Of a stretch of 64,000 bases of DNA, positions 8,963 to 58,557 are shown one piece after another. Source of the stretch: Phytoactinopolyspora alkaliphila (lineage in GTDB: Bacteria; Actinomycetota; Actinomycetes; Jiangellales; Jiangellaceae). Position numbers and translations under genes: made by a program. The stretch lies in contig NZ_JAAGOB010000002.1 in assembly GCF_010550695.1 (NCBI RefSeq), positions 62,001-126,000 of the forward strand. The letters run 5' to 3'. A model generated the notes under the pieces. The model was given only the letters and a program-made list of their open reading frames with translations. It did no database searches and was not told where the DNA came from. Numbering within the stretch: the first letter of the stretch is position 1; each line of letters begins with the position of its first letter.

Positions 8963-9777
8963 CGATGAGCGCCCATAGCACCGTCACCATGGCCCACCCC
9001 ACTCTCCCCGGGGTGCGCCCGGACGCCGCCGGATTGCGGGTCACCGATGTGTCGTGGTCGGTCGATGGAAATCTGATCATCGACGGCGTGGACGTGGCTG
9101 TACGGCCCGGCACTCTCACCGGGCTGCTCGGACCCAACGGGTCGGGGAAGAGCACCCTGCTGCGCGCCGTGGCGGGCACCACCCGCCCGGACCGCGGCAC
9201 GGTCGCGCTCGGGGGCGAGGACCTGCGCAGCATGCGCCGCCGCGAACGCGCCCGCCGCGTGGCTGTCGTGGAACAGGAGGTGTCGACCGATGTGCCGTTG
9301 CGCGTGCTCGACGTGGTCCTGCTCGGCCGCACGCCGTACCCGGCGTCGGACTCCGACGACGACATCGCCCTCGGCGCGCTGCAGACCGTCGGCGTGCCCG
9401 GGCTGGCCGAACGCGACTGGCACACACTCTCGGGTGGGGAACGTCAGCGCGTCCACCTGGCACGCGCCCTGGCCCAGCAGCCCGAGCTTCTCCTACTCGA
9501 CGAGCCCACCAACCACCTCGACATCCACGCCCAGCTGGACCTGATGAGCAACGTGCTCGAGCTGGGCCTGACCTCGCTCGCCGCACTGCACGACCTCAAC
9601 CTTGCCGCCGCGCATTGCCACCAGGTGGTGGTACTCGATCACGGCCGGGTCGCGGCGACCGGGGCACCGGAGGACGTCCTGGTTCCGACGCTGATCCGGG
9701 ACGTATTCCGTGTGGACTGCGACGTGCACCCACATCCCCGCACCGGCCGCCCCGTGCTGACGTTCTCGCCGCTCTAA
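8959..9777 (+). CDS. Putative F420-0 ABC transporter ATP-binding protein
   Basis: 272 aa. The ATG at 8959 overlaps the permease stop by 4 bp; a second ATG at 8965 is possible. Walker A is GPNGSGKST, the signature is LSGGERQRVHLARAL, and Walker B is LLLLDEPTNHLD, with the switch histidine in LAALHDLNLAA. It energises the FecCD-type importer. Its 3' end overlaps the convergent LLM oxidoreductase gene by four bases, so the two transcripts are antisense at their ends. Confidence 0.85.
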   Translation: MTMSAHSTVTMAHPTLPGVRPDAAGLRVTDVSWSVDGNLIIDGVDVAVRPGTLTGLLGPNGSGKSTLLRAVAGTTRPDRGTVALGGEDLRSMRRRERARRVAVVEQEVSTDVPLRVLDVVLLGRTPYPASDSDDDIALGALQTVGVPGLAERDWHTLSGGERQRVHLARALAQQPELLLLDEPTNHLDIHAQLDLMSNVLELGLTSLAALHDLNLAAAHCHQVVVLDHGRVAATGAPEDVLVPTLIRDVFRVDCDVHPHPRTGRPVLTFSPL

Positions 9778-10763
9778 GGCGTGAGCCCGGGGATCACCTC
9801 ACGTCCGAAGGCCTTGAGCCAGCCCAGCTGATCGGTTCCGGCGTTGTGCAGGTACACATGCGTCGCCCCGACGTCGAGGTACCGCTGGATCTCGCGGCGG
9901 TGATCGTCGGGGTCGGCAGAGATGAGCAGCTGGCCCTCGAAGTCTTCCGCGCGTACCGTCCTGGCGATCTGCTCGATGTCATGCGGCGAGCGGATGTCCG
10001 CCTTGGAGAACCGCATGGCACCGTTGGGCCACTCGCGTACCGCCTGGGCGGCGGCCTCGAGGGGGTCCGGTGCCCAGGAGAGGTGGATCTGCACGATCTT
10101 CGCCGCCGACGACGGGTCCTTGCCGACCGAGCGTGCCCCCTCGTCAAACCGGGAGAACAATGCGGCCACCTTCTCCGGCGTCGATGCGACCGTGATGATC
10201 CCGTCGCAGACGGAGCCGGCACGACGCGCGGTGACCGGGCCTGACGTCGCGACGTAGACAGGGGGTGGGACGTCCGGCCGGGTCCAGAGCCGGGTCCGCT
10301 CCAGGGTGAAGAACTTGCCGTCGTGCCGGACGTCACGGCCGGAGAACAGCTTCTGGATGATCTCGATCGCCTCGAACATGCGGGCGATCCGCTGGGGCGC
10401 TTCCGGCCAGTATCCGCCCACCACGTGCTCGCTGATGGCCTCACCGGATCCGATCCCGAGCCAGTGCCGCCCCGGGTACATCGCTTCCAGCGTCGCGGCG
10501 GCCTGCGCGACGACGGCCGGATGCCAGCGGAAGGAGGGACACGTGGCGCCGACACCGACAAGGCCATGAGTGCGCTCGGCCATCGCCGTCATCACGTTCC
10601 AGACGAACCCGGCGTGTCCCTGGCGCGGCGTCCACGGCTGGAAATGGTCGTCGGCCATGACGCCGTCGAAGCCGGCCCGCTCCGCTTCGACCGCGAGATC
10701 CGTCACGTCGGACGGGTGGAAGCGTTCCAGCATCGCCGCGTATCCCACGCGTGCTCCGCTCAT
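9774..10763 (-). CDS. F420-dependent LLM-class oxidoreductase (G6PDH-like subgroup)
   Basis: 329 aa bacterial luciferase-like TIM barrel. The start MSGARVGYAAMLERFHPSDV, the GFDGVMADDHFQPWTPRQGHAGF block, the LVGVGATCPSFRWHPAVVAQ region and YPGRHWLGIGSGEAISEH match the F420-dependent G6PDH-like family (TIGR03557 type). It presumably reduces F420 with an unknown substrate. It lies tail to tail with the F420-0-type transporter operon, which supports an F420 theme for both. The gene is preceded by the 94-bp palindrome at 10784-10877. Confidence 0.85.
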   Translation of the reverse strand: MSGARVGYAAMLERFHPSDVTDLAVEAERAGFDGVMADDHFQPWTPRQGHAGFVWNVMTAMAERTHGLVGVGATCPSFRWHPAVVAQAAATLEAMYPGRHWLGIGSGEAISEHVVGGYWPEAPQRIARMFEAIEIIQKLFSGRDVRHDGKFFTLERTRLWTRPDVPPPVYVATSGPVTARRAGSVCDGIITVASTPEKVAALFSRFDEGARSVGKDPSSAAKIVQIHLSWAPDPLEAAAQAVREWPNGAMRFSKADIRSPHDIEQIARTVRAEDFEGQLLISADPDDHRREIQRYLDVGATHVYLHNAGTDQLGWLKAFGREVIPGLTP

Positions 10764-10783: not shown

Positions 10784-10877
10784 CCTAAATGATCATGTAA
10801 ACCATGTTTGTACGTGCTTCACCATGCCTGCAGGCATGGTAGGGCACGAGAAAACATGGTTTACATGATCATTTAGG
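10784..10877. repeat. Dispersed 94-bp palindromic repeat, family A copy 1
   Basis: Two 47-nt arms meet at CCTG|CAGG (centre 10830/10831). They pair at 41 of 47 positions; the mismatches cluster in two triplets. The outer arm reads CCTAAATGATCATGTAAACC and the inner arm includes ACCATGCCTG. The AT-rich sequence contrasts with the genome. A second 94-bp copy with the same outer arms lies at 45477-45570. Here it separates the groEL terminator from the LLM oxidoreductase start. Confidence 0.9.
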
Positions 10878-10919
10878 ATGGCGCCGTCATTGCGGAGGCA
10901 AATACGGTGGAGATGAGCC

Positions 10920-10957
10920 GGGGCTCGTCCGCTGAAATTCTGTAGCGGACGAGCCCC
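10920..10957 (-). terminator. Intrinsic terminator-like hairpin downstream of groEL
   Basis: A perfect 14-bp stem (GGGGCTCGTCCGCT with AGCGGACGAGCCCC) and a 10-nt loop lie 35 bp past the groEL stop. No U-tract follows on the groEL strand, which is common in high-GC actinomycetes; a short GATATTTT follows on the plus strand. Confidence 0.75.
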
Positions 10958-10991
10958 GATATTTTCCACGCAATGTGCAGCGAACTGATCT

Positions 10992-12638
<1,647 letters not shown>

Positions 12639-35568: not shown

Positions 35569-35626
35569 ACACCCAGGCTTGCATCTCGAACCGACACAGT
35601 CCGCTCCGCGGCTCACTTCTCTGCTC

Positions 35627-35708
35627 AAGCTTGACTTCACTGCCCAGAATCGCGCGAATGCCGCCGAACGTGCCCGCAAACGCGATTCACGGCAGCGAAG
35701 TCAAGCCT
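35627..35708. repeat. Long inverted repeat upstream of pentapeptide pseudogene
   Basis: Two 28-nt arms (35627-35654 and 35681-35708) match at 24 of 28 positions, ending in perfect GAATCGCG/CGCGATTC. The outer motif GCTTGACTTC occurs inverted as GAAGTCAAGC, and a further direct copy AGCAGCGAAGTCAAGCC follows at about 35710-35726. The 188-bp gap between tsaE and the pseudogene holds nothing else recognisable. Confidence 0.75.
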
Positions 35709-35756
35709 CAGCAGCGAAGTCAAGCCGGGCACCAGAGTCAGGCCTGTGCAGAGGAG

Positions 35757-44692: not shown

Positions 44693-45481
44693 ATGCACTT
44701 GCGCTACACAGCGCGTTCAGACGTCGGTCTCAGCAGAGACGGCAACGAGGACGCGGCGATCGCCGGACCGAACGTCCTGGCTGTCGCCGACGGTATGGGC
44801 GGGCACGCTGCCGGTGAGGTCGCCAGCCACGCGACGGTCGACGAGCTGATCCGGGCAGACCTCGACGGGGCCCCGGACCCGGTCGGCTCGCTCGCCGCAT
44901 TGTTCTCCGCGGCCAATGCGCGTATCCGGCAGCTCGTCATCGACGCGCCGGAGCGCAACGGCATGGGCACCACAGCCACCGTCATCGTCACGTCGGGCGC
45001 GCACCTGCCGCCGGGCACGGTGGCGGTCGGCCACATCGGCGACTCCCGGGCCTACCTCCTGCGAGCCGGGGAGCTGCGCCAGCTCACCCGCGACCACACC
45101 TTCGTCCAGACCCTGGTGGACGACAAGCACATCACACCGTCCGAGGCGAGAGTGCACCCGGCGCGGTCCGTGGTGACCAAGGTCTTGCAGGGAGTCGAGC
45201 CGGTCGAGCCGGATCTCTTCCTGGTGGAGGTCGAGGTCAGGGACCGGATTCTCATCTGCAGCGACGGCCTCACCGACGTCCTCACCGACGAGGTCCTTCA
45301 GGAGACGCTCACGTCGGCGGATACGGTCGAGTCGGCTGCCGACGAGCTGATCCGGCTGGCGCTCGACGGCGGTGGACCGGACAACATCACGGTAGTCCTG
45401 GCCGACGTCGTGGGGCTGGAGCCGGCCGACGGCCAGGTCGACCCAGCACCAACCTACGTCACCGGCGCCGCCGCCTCCTGA
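44693..45481 (+). CDS. PP2C-type Ser/Thr protein phosphatase
   Basis: 262 aa. SDVGLSRDGNEDAA, ADGMGGHAAGEVAS, GHIGDSRAYLLR, CSDGLTDVL and GGGPDNITVVLADV are the metal- and phosphate-binding motifs of PPM phosphatases. No membrane segment, so it is soluble, unlike PstP. It may reverse the action of Ser/Thr kinases such as the one at 13378, but it is not in the same operon. Its TGA stop lies inside the left arm of the 94-bp repeat at 45477. Confidence 0.95.
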   Translation: MHLRYTARSDVGLSRDGNEDAAIAGPNVLAVADGMGGHAAGEVASHATVDELIRADLDGAPDPVGSLAALFSAANARIRQLVIDAPERNGMGTTATVIVTSGAHLPPGTVAVGHIGDSRAYLLRAGELRQLTRDHTFVQTLVDDKHITPSEARVHPARSVVTKVLQGVEPVEPDLFLVEVEVRDRILICSDGLTDVLTDEVLQETLTSADTVESAADELIRLALDGGGPDNITVVLADVVGLEPADGQVDPAPTYVTGAAAS

Positions 45482-45570
45482 ATGATCATGTAAACCATGT
45501 TTTCTCGTGCTTCACCATGTCTGCAGCCCTGGTGAAGCACGAGAAAACATGGTTTACATGATCATTCAGG
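45477..45570. repeat. Dispersed 94-bp palindromic repeat, family A copy 2
   Basis: It has the same length as copy 1. The outer arms, from CCTGAATGATCATGTAAACC inward through CCATGTTTTCTCGTGCTTCA, pair perfectly over 41 positions; the centre (TGTCTGCAGCCC) is asymmetric. The PP2C stop codon lies in the left arm, and the convergent GNAT gene ends 22 bp to the right, so it probably acts as a two-way terminator here. Confidence 0.92.
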
Positions 45571-45591: not shown

Positions 45592-46584
45592 TCACACGTC
45601 GCGCTGATACCCGGCCGCCCAGCCCTCCACCCGGTAGCCCAGCGTCTCGTTGATGCTGATCATCTGCTGATTCGAGTCAGCGTTCCAGGTCCAAATGGCT
45701 TGAATACCCGGTCGGTCACGCAGCACTTGACGGAAGTTCGCCGCCTTGAGCAGGAGACCGAGGCGATGCCCCCGGTGACCGGGGTCGACCAGCGTCGTGT
45801 CCTGGAAGCCGACCTCGTCGCTGTCCTGGTGAACGGTGATCCGGGTCAGACCGGCCATGGTGCCGTCCCCGGACACCGCCACGGCGCTCCATGCGCTGCG
45901 GCCCATACGCTGCGCCCGCTCCTCGATCTTGCGGATCCTCGCTTCGTCCCAGACTTCCGGCTGGTAGTCCAGCTCGCCGAGCGGTGCATCGGTGGAGAGC
46001 CTTCCCTCAAGCCGGGCGTACTCATCCACCAGGTCATCGGGTACCCGGTCTCGCCAGGCCACGATCTGGTACCCCTCCGCGTGCGGACGGGCTTCGTCCT
46101 CCGCCTTGGCGATGGCGTCCAGATCGAACGGTGGCCGCTGTACCCGGGCGATCTCGGTGATGCGGCGGGTGAACCCATGCTTCTCGAAGAACCGCGTCCC
46201 CGACGTCTGCGACGCGTCGGCCGGACCTTCAAGGTAGGTAAGCAAGCTCGTGCGCTGGTTCTCCCGGGCCGCACCCTCGAGCGTCTCCAGAAGCGCTGTG
46301 CCGACCCCGCGCCGCCGTGCCTCGGGCCTCACCCAGATCTCCGGCTCGCCGAGGGCCGTGTTGTCTCGCAACGGAAGGCCGAGCTTGGCCGCGCCAACTG
46401 GGCGAGCGTCCTCCTCCGCCAGCCACAGCTTCGCGTCCACGTGCTCGCTGGGATCGAAGATCACCCGAAGCTCGCGCTCGCTATATCGCGGACCGGTCGG
46501 ATGGTCCGCGACGTGCGCCGAGTGGTAGGTCTCGTACCACGCCGAGAAGGCGTCCTCTGCTGACGTGATGGTCCGGATGCGCAT
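45592..46584 (-). CDS. Tandem-GNAT N-acetyltransferase
   Basis: 330 aa from the ATG at 46584 (MRIRTITSAEDAFSAWYET). Two GNAT domains: the first has an acetyl-CoA loop IWVRPEARRRGVGTALLETLE, and the second has FQDTTLVDPGHRGHRLGLLLKAAN and WNADSNQQMISINETLGYRV. The tandem layout is like mycothiol synthase MshD, but its residues do not identify it as MshD. The substrate is unknown. Confidence 0.88.
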   Translation of the reverse strand: MRIRTITSAEDAFSAWYETYHSAHVADHPTGPRYSERELRVIFDPSEHVDAKLWLAEEDARPVGAAKLGLPLRDNTALGEPEIWVRPEARRRGVGTALLETLEGAARENQRTSLLTYLEGPADASQTSGTRFFEKHGFTRRITEIARVQRPPFDLDAIAKAEDEARPHAEGYQIVAWRDRVPDDLVDEYARLEGRLSTDAPLGELDYQPEVWDEARIRKIEERAQRMGRSAWSAVAVSGDGTMAGLTRITVHQDSDEVGFQDTTLVDPGHRGHRLGLLLKAANFRQVLRDRPGIQAIWTWNADSNQQMISINETLGYRVEGWAAGYQRDV

Positions 46585-56512: not shown

Positions 56513-57223
56513 ATGCCCTCGTACGCTGACATCGACCTCGTGGTCTTCGACATCCTGGGCACCCTCGTCAACGAGCCCGGCGGGCTGCACGACAGCATCC
56601 GCGAACTGGCTCCGGACAGCAGCGCCGGAGATGTCGGCGGCCTCGTCGAGATGTGGCAGAACTACGTCGCAGACGAACAACAGAAGATGCTCGACCGCGG
56701 CCGCCCCTACGCCAACAGCGACGCCGTCGACCGCGAAGCGGCGGAACTCATCGCGGCCAGGTGTGGCGTCACCGACGCCACCGCCGTCGACAGGCTCGCC
56801 ACGGCAGAGCGACGGCTCGACCCGTGGCCCGACACCGTCGAAGCTCTCGAACGGATCGCACGTCATCTCCCTGTCGTGGGCCTGTCGAACGCGAGCCGGG
56901 CAACCCTGACCGGCCTCAACCTCCACGCCGGACTGCGATGGCACTACGTGCTCTCTGCCGAGGACGCACAGAGCTACAAACCCGCCCCTGACGTCTACCG
57001 GCTCGCCGTGGACCTCACCGGCGGCACCCCTGAGCGCGTGCTCATGGTCGCCGCTCACGCATGGGACCTCCGCGGCGCTCAAGCCCTAGGACTGCGCACG
57101 GCCTATGTCCGGCGGCCCGTCGGCGACCCACCCCGGGCCACCGACGCCTTCGACTACCGAGCCGACAGCCTCGCCGATCTCGCGGCTGTACTCCTCGGCC
57201 GCCAGCACGCGCGAGTCCCGTGA
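56513..57223 (+). CDS. HAD superfamily hydrolase (haloacid dehalogenase-like subfamily)
   Basis: 236 aa from the ATG at 56513, with AAAGGCGGAG upstream. The nucleophile Asp is in VVFDILGTLV, followed by VGLSNASRATL (motif II) and AQSYKPAPDVYRLA with the Lys. Motif III reads VLMVAAHAWDLRGAQALGLRTAYVRRP, which together with the RPVG ending resembles type II 2-haloacid dehalogenase relatives. The substrate is unknown. Its stop is inside the hairpin at 57222. Confidence 0.88.
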   Translation: MPSYADIDLVVFDILGTLVNEPGGLHDSIRELAPDSSAGDVGGLVEMWQNYVADEQQKMLDRGRPYANSDAVDREAAELIAARCGVTDATAVDRLATAERRLDPWPDTVEALERIARHLPVVGLSNASRATLTGLNLHAGLRWHYVLSAEDAQSYKPAPDVYRLAVDLTGGTPERVLMVAAHAWDLRGAQALGLRTAYVRRPVGDPPRATDAFDYRADSLADLAAVLLGRQHARVP

Positions 57224-57270
57224 TCATCGACGGTTGGCCACCTGACCCATGTGCCCAACCGTCAATGATC
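57222..57270. terminator. Bidirectional hairpin containing both convergent stop codons
   Basis: GATCATCGACGGTTGG (57222-57237) pairs with CCAACCGTCAATGATC (57255-57270) with one mismatch and a 17-nt loop. The HAD stop (57221-57223) and the OppF-like stop (57262-57264, minus strand) lie at or inside opposite arms. Confidence 0.75.
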
Positions 57271-58557
57271 GTGGGAGAGGTTGGGGTCGTGGAGGTGACA
57301 GGCGACGTCGACGGCGTTCACACGGAGTAGTCCGGGGTCGATTCCTGGACGGAAGCGCACCACCACGGCACCGCCGTCGGACTCGATCCGCTCGACACCC
57401 TTCCACAACGGGTCGTCCGGTTCGTCGGCGCGCGCCTCCTCCAGGAGCGCCGTGAGCTCGGCAGCGCGCCCGCCCGCTCTCACCCGGACCATCTCCTCGT
57501 GCGCGTCGACCTCGGTCAGCTCACCCACCAGAGGCTCTTCCCGTGCAAGCGCGTCCTCGCCCAGCCGGATCCACCGTCGCTCGAACATCGCCCGCAGGTC
57601 ACGTGCCTCCCAGCCGCACGGTTCGAACGCGAACGGACAGCGCGGGTGGAACGAGCAGCCGTGTGGCGGCGCAGCCGCATCAGGTATCTCGCCCCGAGGC
57701 AGATCCCGGGGCACCTTTCGCTCCGGGTCGAGGTCGGGGACGGCACGCAGGAGCGCCTTCGTGTAGGGGTGCTTCGGATCGGCGAAGATCTCCTCGGTGG
57801 GCCCGATCTCGACCACCCGGCCGAGGTACATGATGGCCACCCGGTCGCAGAAGAATTTCGCTGTCGCCAGGTCATGGGTGATGTAGACGTAGGTCAGGTC
57901 GAGATCCCGCCCGAGCTCGAGCATCAGCTCGAGGATCTTCGCCCGGACGCTCATGTCGAGCATGGAGATCGGCTCATCGGCGACGAGCAGTTCCGGTCCG
58001 CAGATGATGGCCCTGGCGATGACCGCACGCTGTTTTTGCCCGCCGGAGAGCTCTGCCGGCAGCTTGTCGAGAAACTGGTCAGCCGGCGTCAGCCCCACCC
58101 GTTCGAGTGTCTCCCGGACACGTTCACGCGCTTCGGCCTTGCTCTTGACCAGCTTGTGGATCCGGAGCGGATGACCGATGGCGGTGGCCAGGTCCATCGA
58201 CGGGTTGAGCGCGGCGTGCGGGTCCTGGAACACCATCTGCAGGCGGCGACGGACCGAACGCAGCTGTCGCTGCGGCATCCGCGCCAGGTCCAGGTCGCCG
58301 TAGGTGATGTGGCCGGAGGTAGGCCGGACCAAGCCCAGCAACGCCCGGCCCAGCGTGGTCTTGCCACTGCCGGACTCTCCGACCAGGCCGAGCACCTCAC
58401 CCTTGCGCAGCGCGACGTTGACGCCGTCCACGGCCTTGACGGTCTCGCCCTCACCGCCCACCAGCCGGGCCAGCGCGCTGCCGCGAAGCTCGTAGTGAAC
58501 CTTGAGGTCGCGGATCTCCATCAGAGGCCGCTCGGCGGACTGCTCCGGCGTAGTCAT
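57262..58557 (-). CDS. Peptide/opine-type ABC transporter ATP-binding protein (OppF/DppF-like)
   Basis: 431 aa from the ATG at 58557, 4 bp past the OppD-like stop. Walker A GESGSGKTT, signature LSGGQKQRAVIARAI, Walker B ELLVADEPISMLD, and the oligopeptide C-terminal domain with cysteines in HGCSFHPRCPFAFEPCGWEARD, a 4Fe-4S-like Cys pattern seen in this group. A further extension of about 100 residues follows, with VRAGGRAAELTALLEEARADE and VVVRFRPGIDPGLLRVN. Confidence 0.92.
   Translation of the reverse strand: MTTPEQSAERPLMEIRDLKVHYELRGSALARLVGGEGETVKAVDGVNVALRKGEVLGLVGESGSGKTTLGRALLGLVRPTSGHITYGDLDLARMPQRQLRSVRRRLQMVFQDPHAALNPSMDLATAIGHPLRIHKLVKSKAEARERVRETLERVGLTPADQFLDKLPAELSGGQKQRAVIARAIICGPELLVADEPISMLDMSVRAKILELMLELGRDLDLTYVYITHDLATAKFFCDRVAIMYLGRVVEIGPTEEIFADPKHPYTKALLRAVPDLDPERKVPRDLPRGEIPDAAAPPHGCSFHPRCPFAFEPCGWEARDLRAMFERRWIRLGEDALAREEPLVGELTEVDAHEEMVRVRAGGRAAELTALLEEARADEPDDPLWKGVERIESDGGAVVVRFRPGIDPGLLRVNAVDVACHLHDPNLSHDH

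Follow-up and report, generated by a model that had tools for sequence, protein, structure and literature searches.

What kind of element are the two 94-bp palindromes found at positions 10784-10877 and 45477-45570 of a 64-kb stretch of DNA, and what placed them there? The stretch, called the window below, is region G000:C12:62001-126000 of the 5.5-Mb host genome (G000, 33 contigs). A preliminary description had located both palindromes correctly and likened them to REP and MITE repeats. The features that bear on the question are the following.

10784..10877, no strand: palindrome copy 1, of the 82-bp TGATCA class (94 bp including outer positions)
45477..45570, no strand: palindrome copy 2, flanked by the PP2C phosphatase and GNAT genes, which converge on it
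57216..57276, no strand: degenerate TGATCA-ended palindrome of the ~50-bp class, between convergent genes
10918..10958, minus strand: hairpin of ordinary type with an AT-rich stretch behind it, probably the groEL terminator
10992..12614, minus strand: groEL (Cpn60), upstream neighbour of copy 1
9774..10763, minus strand: luciferase-like monooxygenase gene (PF00296), downstream neighbour of copy 1
44693..45481, plus strand: PP2C protein phosphatase gene, ending inside copy 2
45592..46584, minus strand: GNAT acetyltransferase gene, convergent neighbour of copy 2

Each copy consists of two 47-nt arms without a loop. The arms of copy 1 are complementary at 41 of 47 positions (87%), which reproduces the earlier count, and those of copy 2 at 96%; the predicted folding energies are -65 and -72.6 kcal/mol, respectively (z of -13.4 and -15.3, with 0 of 200 shuffles as good). 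A 23-nt arm occurs four times in the window, compared with 0.00 expected. At copy 2, the outer CCTGA of the palindrome provides the stop codon of the PP2C gene. Copy 1, whose neighbours groEL and the monooxygenase gene both lie on the minus strand, is the main exception to the proximity to stop codons documented below: it lies more than 100 nt after groEL, behind a hairpin that, judged from its sequence, is probably the groEL terminator. In the related genome G018, the gene end orthologous to 57216..57276 carries an 82-bp palindrome. The window also contains an inverted repeat at 35615-35720 (40-nt arms, 85%) with repeated 'TCAAG..GCAGMGAAGT' motifs, which is unrelated to the palindromes.

Copy number, fixed length and covarying arms

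A search of G000 with a 19-nt arm, allowing up to three mismatches, gave 69 forward and 70 reverse matches (control, 0), and no Rfam family matched the copies at the gathering threshold. The palindrome is thus neither limited to two copies genome-wide nor a known Rfam terminator or riboswitch, either of which would, by the preliminary description's own terms, have refuted it, and its reading as a dispersed palindromic repeat is upheld. Both arms are exact in 49 palindromes, 66 copies could be brought into register, and the total is about 66-70. The unit is an 86-bp block, AATGATCAT...ATGATCATT, with a few semi-conserved positions outside it; measured as AATGATCATGTAAACCATG...CATT it spans 86 bp in almost all copies; one copy is 2 bases longer. 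Of the positions immediately outside, -3 is C in 99% of copies and -1 is A or G, so that the ends read YCYR-AATGATCAT. The outer 19 nt are nearly invariant. The interior is variable; its changes often match between the arms (CCTTCTCG...CGAGAAGG), and recurrent asymmetries occur as well. Four copies in G000 (L073, L090, L116 and L117), and copies in G011 such as L151, carry a TGATCA end on one arm only and CATGGTGAT at the other; this asymmetric form of the element may be the older one.

The preliminary description had proposed a covariation check and a search of related genera, and both were run. In an alignment of 46 copies from nine genomes, both sides had changed at 23 of 41 stem pairs, giving 206 such cells compared with 88.5 in shuffles that leave relatedness in (0 of 500 as high); slid controls, which remove relatedness, collapsed. 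The interiors consist of independent species-specific blocks, AAACCATG in G000, GAAGTRGG in G018, TTGGTRGG in G020 and TTGGTACG in G021, and at sites shared between species the arms change in step (L064 with G020; L078 and L081 with G017). In a few G000 copies (L064, L082 and L108), one arm retains an older block and the other already has the new one. Among 31 G018 copies, the outer 11 nt are invariant, positions 31-32 are variable, and nearly all have ACCATG on one arm and AACAGG on the other. This internal asymmetry is conserved and its orientation relative to genes is random (7:6), as is expected if copies of a slightly asymmetric master were inserted either way round. Homogenisation by gene conversion could also account for part of the species-specific sequence. 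Across genera, the 86-nt length of the unit is the same, with arms that are compensated and species specific.

The 82-bp form extends beyond the host family. A class-wide search with a covariance model of the long form matched 17 of 22 family genomes as well as genomes of families f40 and f9 and, weakly, of f15 and f28. The pattern TGAYCAYGT-N(50-78)-ACRTGRTCA occurred in several copies, nearly always of exactly 82 bp, in genomes of f1, f9, f31 and f40, where controls gave zero. With interiors unrelated in sequence yet self-complementary, the form recurs in three or more families of the class besides the host's. In additional families, single matches of differing length look like chance resemblances in coding sequence. 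What stays constant is the TGAYCAYGT ends, the rigid 82-bp length and self-complementarity, with an interior that belongs to each species. In some 82-bp palindromes of f31 and f9, namely L360 (G077), L373 (G029) and L374 (G123), a second TGATCA/TGACCA box lies about 11 nt inside the arm (TGATCACGTNNACGTGATCA).

Additional palindromes with TGATCA ends, about 50 and 58 bp long, turned up when 464 kb of G000, 400 kb of G019, 300 kb of G020 and 100 kb of G011 were surveyed (shuffled controls, 0). Matches to the corresponding sister class, TGATCAT-N(28-44)-ATGATCA, were present in all 22 family genomes at 1 to 214 per genome (control, 0); among the matches listed, those of copy-rich genomes are mostly 49-50 bp and those of copy-poor genomes partly resemble coding sequence. 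G019 also has several intergenic inverted repeats of about 500-700 bp per 400 kb, built of repeated GATCAGRTGCRC-like motifs (L237 and other loci, sample positions 74145-74653, 94153-94863 and 129177-129685). The phage, plasmid and viral collections held no match to the palindromes, and we found no description of the family in a partial coverage of the literature. These fixed-length palindromes, of which each genome in a group of actinobacteria has tens to hundreds, are therefore apparently undescribed.

Placement at gene ends and variation between orthologous sites

Using gene ends called with a purpose-written gene caller, we located 125 distinct 82-bp copies from several genomes, with 60 between convergent, 52 between tandem and 3 between divergent genes. 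Copies in G000 adjoin stop codons; 30 of them are convergent, 23 are tandem and a single degenerate copy is divergent. The distribution in G018 is similar (15, 14 and 0). Where tandem genes left enough space, 23 of 26 copies lay within 40 nt of the upstream stop codon, compared with 6.2 expected from a rough intergenic background taken from one 64-kb window (P = 7e-13), and in many copies the element itself provides the stop codon. Either targeting or survivorship may explain this preference for gene ends. Some copies lie inside operons, where the distance to the next start codon is 22 nt for sufC-sufS, 33 nt for xylA-xylB, 43 nt for ilvN-ilvC and about 15-25 nt for hisA-hisF (suf and ilv named by Pfam matches, xyl and his by reading of the sequence). 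With about 15-45 nt before the next start, it is unlikely that the palindromes act as efficient terminators there.

The flanks have a composition of their own. Within roughly 25 nt of the hairpin on either side, and reading in its direction, C makes up.47-.52 and G.22-.24, compared with about.35 and.34 at control gene ends, and the flanks in G018 are likewise C-rich and G-poor. In a single case, an ortholog pair of G020 and G000, the last codons themselves appear to have turned C-rich. The flanks do not lengthen the stem, as past position -3 they are no more complementary than expected from their composition. After the stem comes G-rich sequence with no T-run, the feature missing for an intrinsic terminator.

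We compared orthologous sites among relatives that include no near-identical genome pair. In 40 comparisons one or both sites carried a palindrome, and in 33 of these its presence differed; some comparisons have a gene in common, so the 40 are not all independent. Between hisA and hisF, which mostly overlap or abut in the g5 genomes, the palindrome is absent from 11 g5 outgroup genomes and from G000; one type of 50-bp-class palindrome is present in G017, G018, G020 and G021, and another type in G019, each with C-rich and G-rich flanks. The empty site in G000 either was never filled or has lost its element. RTGA stands on both sides of the hisA-hisF palindromes and is also needed there as stop and start codon; the flanks of the G000 copies show no consistent direct repeat. 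The GNAT-PP2C slot of copy 2 holds the long form in G000, a 50-bp palindrome in G019, a third type in G020 and an ordinary GC hairpin in G018.

Transposases and the origin of the palindromes

The preliminary description had noted that no transposase is present, which is correct around both window copies; elsewhere in the genome, insertion sequences lie beside or inside palindromes. At seven contig ends (L068, L072, L078, L103, L105, L107 and L082), an ISL3 element adjoins the outer edge of the palindrome, always with its boundary about 3 bp outside AATGATC, which suggests that ISL3 has a strong target preference. At five others (L075, L092, L102, L104 and L106), IS30 ends inside the copy, near the centre and at several different positions. 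As ISL3 adjoins from outside and IS30 lies within copies, we read both as later insertions. They appear to use the palindromes as landing sites, which coincide with contig breaks of this assembly. Their own ends do not resemble the palindrome, and we rejected them as mobilisers.

Y1 tyrosine transposases (PF01797, RAYT) were found in 0 of 22 family genomes, in a search that was positive in 5 of 14 known genomes used as control. The palindromes are therefore not REP/REPIN members. No autonomous element with a transposase between such ends was present in about 1.26 Mb of sampled sequence or among the G000 arms; one might still be concealed in several small, repeated G000 contigs whose sequence is given as N. 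Candidate TGATC-ended autonomous transposons proved to be chance pairs in coding DNA or other large repeats of G019, and transposon-like pairs in G011 were separate palindromes at both ends of one gene.

What the data show is the copy number, the rigid length, the covariation of the arms and the location at gene 3' ends, together with orthologous sites that are empty in some genomes and filled in others and slots that hold different palindrome types. The simplest reading that accommodates the fixed length and ends, interiors that vary freely yet remain self-complementary, the random orientation and the patchy presence is that each palindrome is a copy of a non-autonomous, hairpin-forming mobile DNA element, moved by an enzyme and fixed at gene 3' ends, a reading to which we give an even chance. 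A trans-acting enzyme would recognise the two ends or the folded strand, be sensitive to arm length (41 bp here and about 25 bp in the sister class) and amplify a species-specific master, the interior being free provided that the arms remain complementary. The element would be tolerated in operons because few codons would be lost and no promoter broken; it would be read through there, and the transcript would fold directly behind the stop codon into a long hairpin that RNase III could plausibly cleave. That no autonomous partner, transposase or clean target duplication was found weighs against the mobile-element reading, as do the C-rich and G-rich flanks, for which it offers no explanation. 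We only tentatively extend this reading to a superfamily across several actinobacterial families, in which the enzyme would read TGAYCA ends and a fixed hairpin arm length whatever the interior, with hundreds of copies placed at gene 3' ends and sequence types replaced within the same slots.

Host evolution might instead have placed the palindromes as functional 3'-end elements under selection, either bidirectional terminators or hairpins that process or stabilise mRNA. Copies directly after stop codons, the convergent excess and divergent deficit, very stable hairpins with compensatory changes, and the ordinary hairpins at some orthologous ends that lack a palindrome are all consistent with this. 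We nevertheless consider it unlikely, because terminator function needs neither identical sequence in 66 copies nor rigid length, the stem is not followed by a T-run, and the copies in sufC-sufS, ilvN-ilvC, xylA-xylB and hisA-hisF leave little room for a new promoter. In the sense strand, the excess of GU over AC pairs was not significant (40:27, P = 0.14), and this asymmetry thus gave no support for RNA-level selection.

Rather improbable, in our judgement, is that the palindromes are classical MITEs, deletion derivatives of an insertion sequence with terminal inverted repeats starting in TGAYCA that are moved by the parent's DDE transposase. They are indeed short, non-coding, dispersed in many copies and patchily present, with conserved terminal inverted repeats; several sequence types with the same terminal motif could mean several parents, and a parent could be hidden in the small G000 contigs that read as N. 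However, all intact arms in the samples are part of palindromes rather than ends of a longer element, the flanks carry no consistent direct duplication, and deletion derivatives are not expected to have a rigid total length and full self-complementarity. The differences in presence at orthologous sites leave some room for 'MITE-like' in the preliminary description, but no transposase-bearing element with such ends and no clean target duplication was found. The invariant outer 11 nt, rigid spacing, convergent excess and lack of RNA-strand bias would also suit DNA-level binding or topology sites between convergent genes, for example for a nucleoid protein or gyrase. This is highly improbable: a GATC-ended hairpin occurs at just 1-5 of 8-37 sampled convergent junctions per genome, orthologous sites often differ in presence, and a protein site needs no full complementarity of a freely varying interior.

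Comparison with known dispersed palindromes

REPs are 20-40 bp palindromes tagged with GTAG/CGTC, and REP/REPIN systems have RAYT transposases (PMC3733652). Like the host palindromes, they are high-copy, extragenic and of several families per genome, and are found downstream of coding regions, chiefly where genes are convergent or co-directional (PMC3733652). By contrast, the host palindromes are single rigid units of 82 or about 50 bp (82-94 bp for the long unit with its outer positions), and both the GTAG/CGTC tag and, across the 22 family genomes, the Y1 transposase are absent; the earlier 'REP-like' label therefore does not hold in its strict sense.

ERIC sequences are imperfect palindromes of about 127 bp that are not known to have a transposase. 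The review PMC10969869 describes them as conserved elements of intergenic regions that number tens to hundreds of copies and count as MITEs, and effects on mRNA are reported for those inserted at gene 3' ends. The host palindromes differ from ERIC in bacterial host and sequence, and in that their length and ends are constant across species and the interior varies freely. The same review describes the Correia elements of Neisseria as small mobile repeats that form RNA hairpins, with RNase III cleavage of the transcripts bearing them; there is no sequence relation to the host palindromes, for which RNase III processing is only proposed. SPRITE, RUP and BOX of Streptococcus pneumoniae are small dispersed repeats, one of them terminator-like (PMC3049150; PMC10969869), and are unrelated in sequence and phylum.

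Two size classes in one bacterial family, with the long class in several others, form a comparative system that allows direct tests of mobility, gene-end placement and effects on operon mRNA. Dispersed palindromes as such are already known; what appears to be new here is a family defined by exact length, end motif and self-complementarity rather than by sequence, a definition that points to an undescribed enzyme or to a constraint that measures length.
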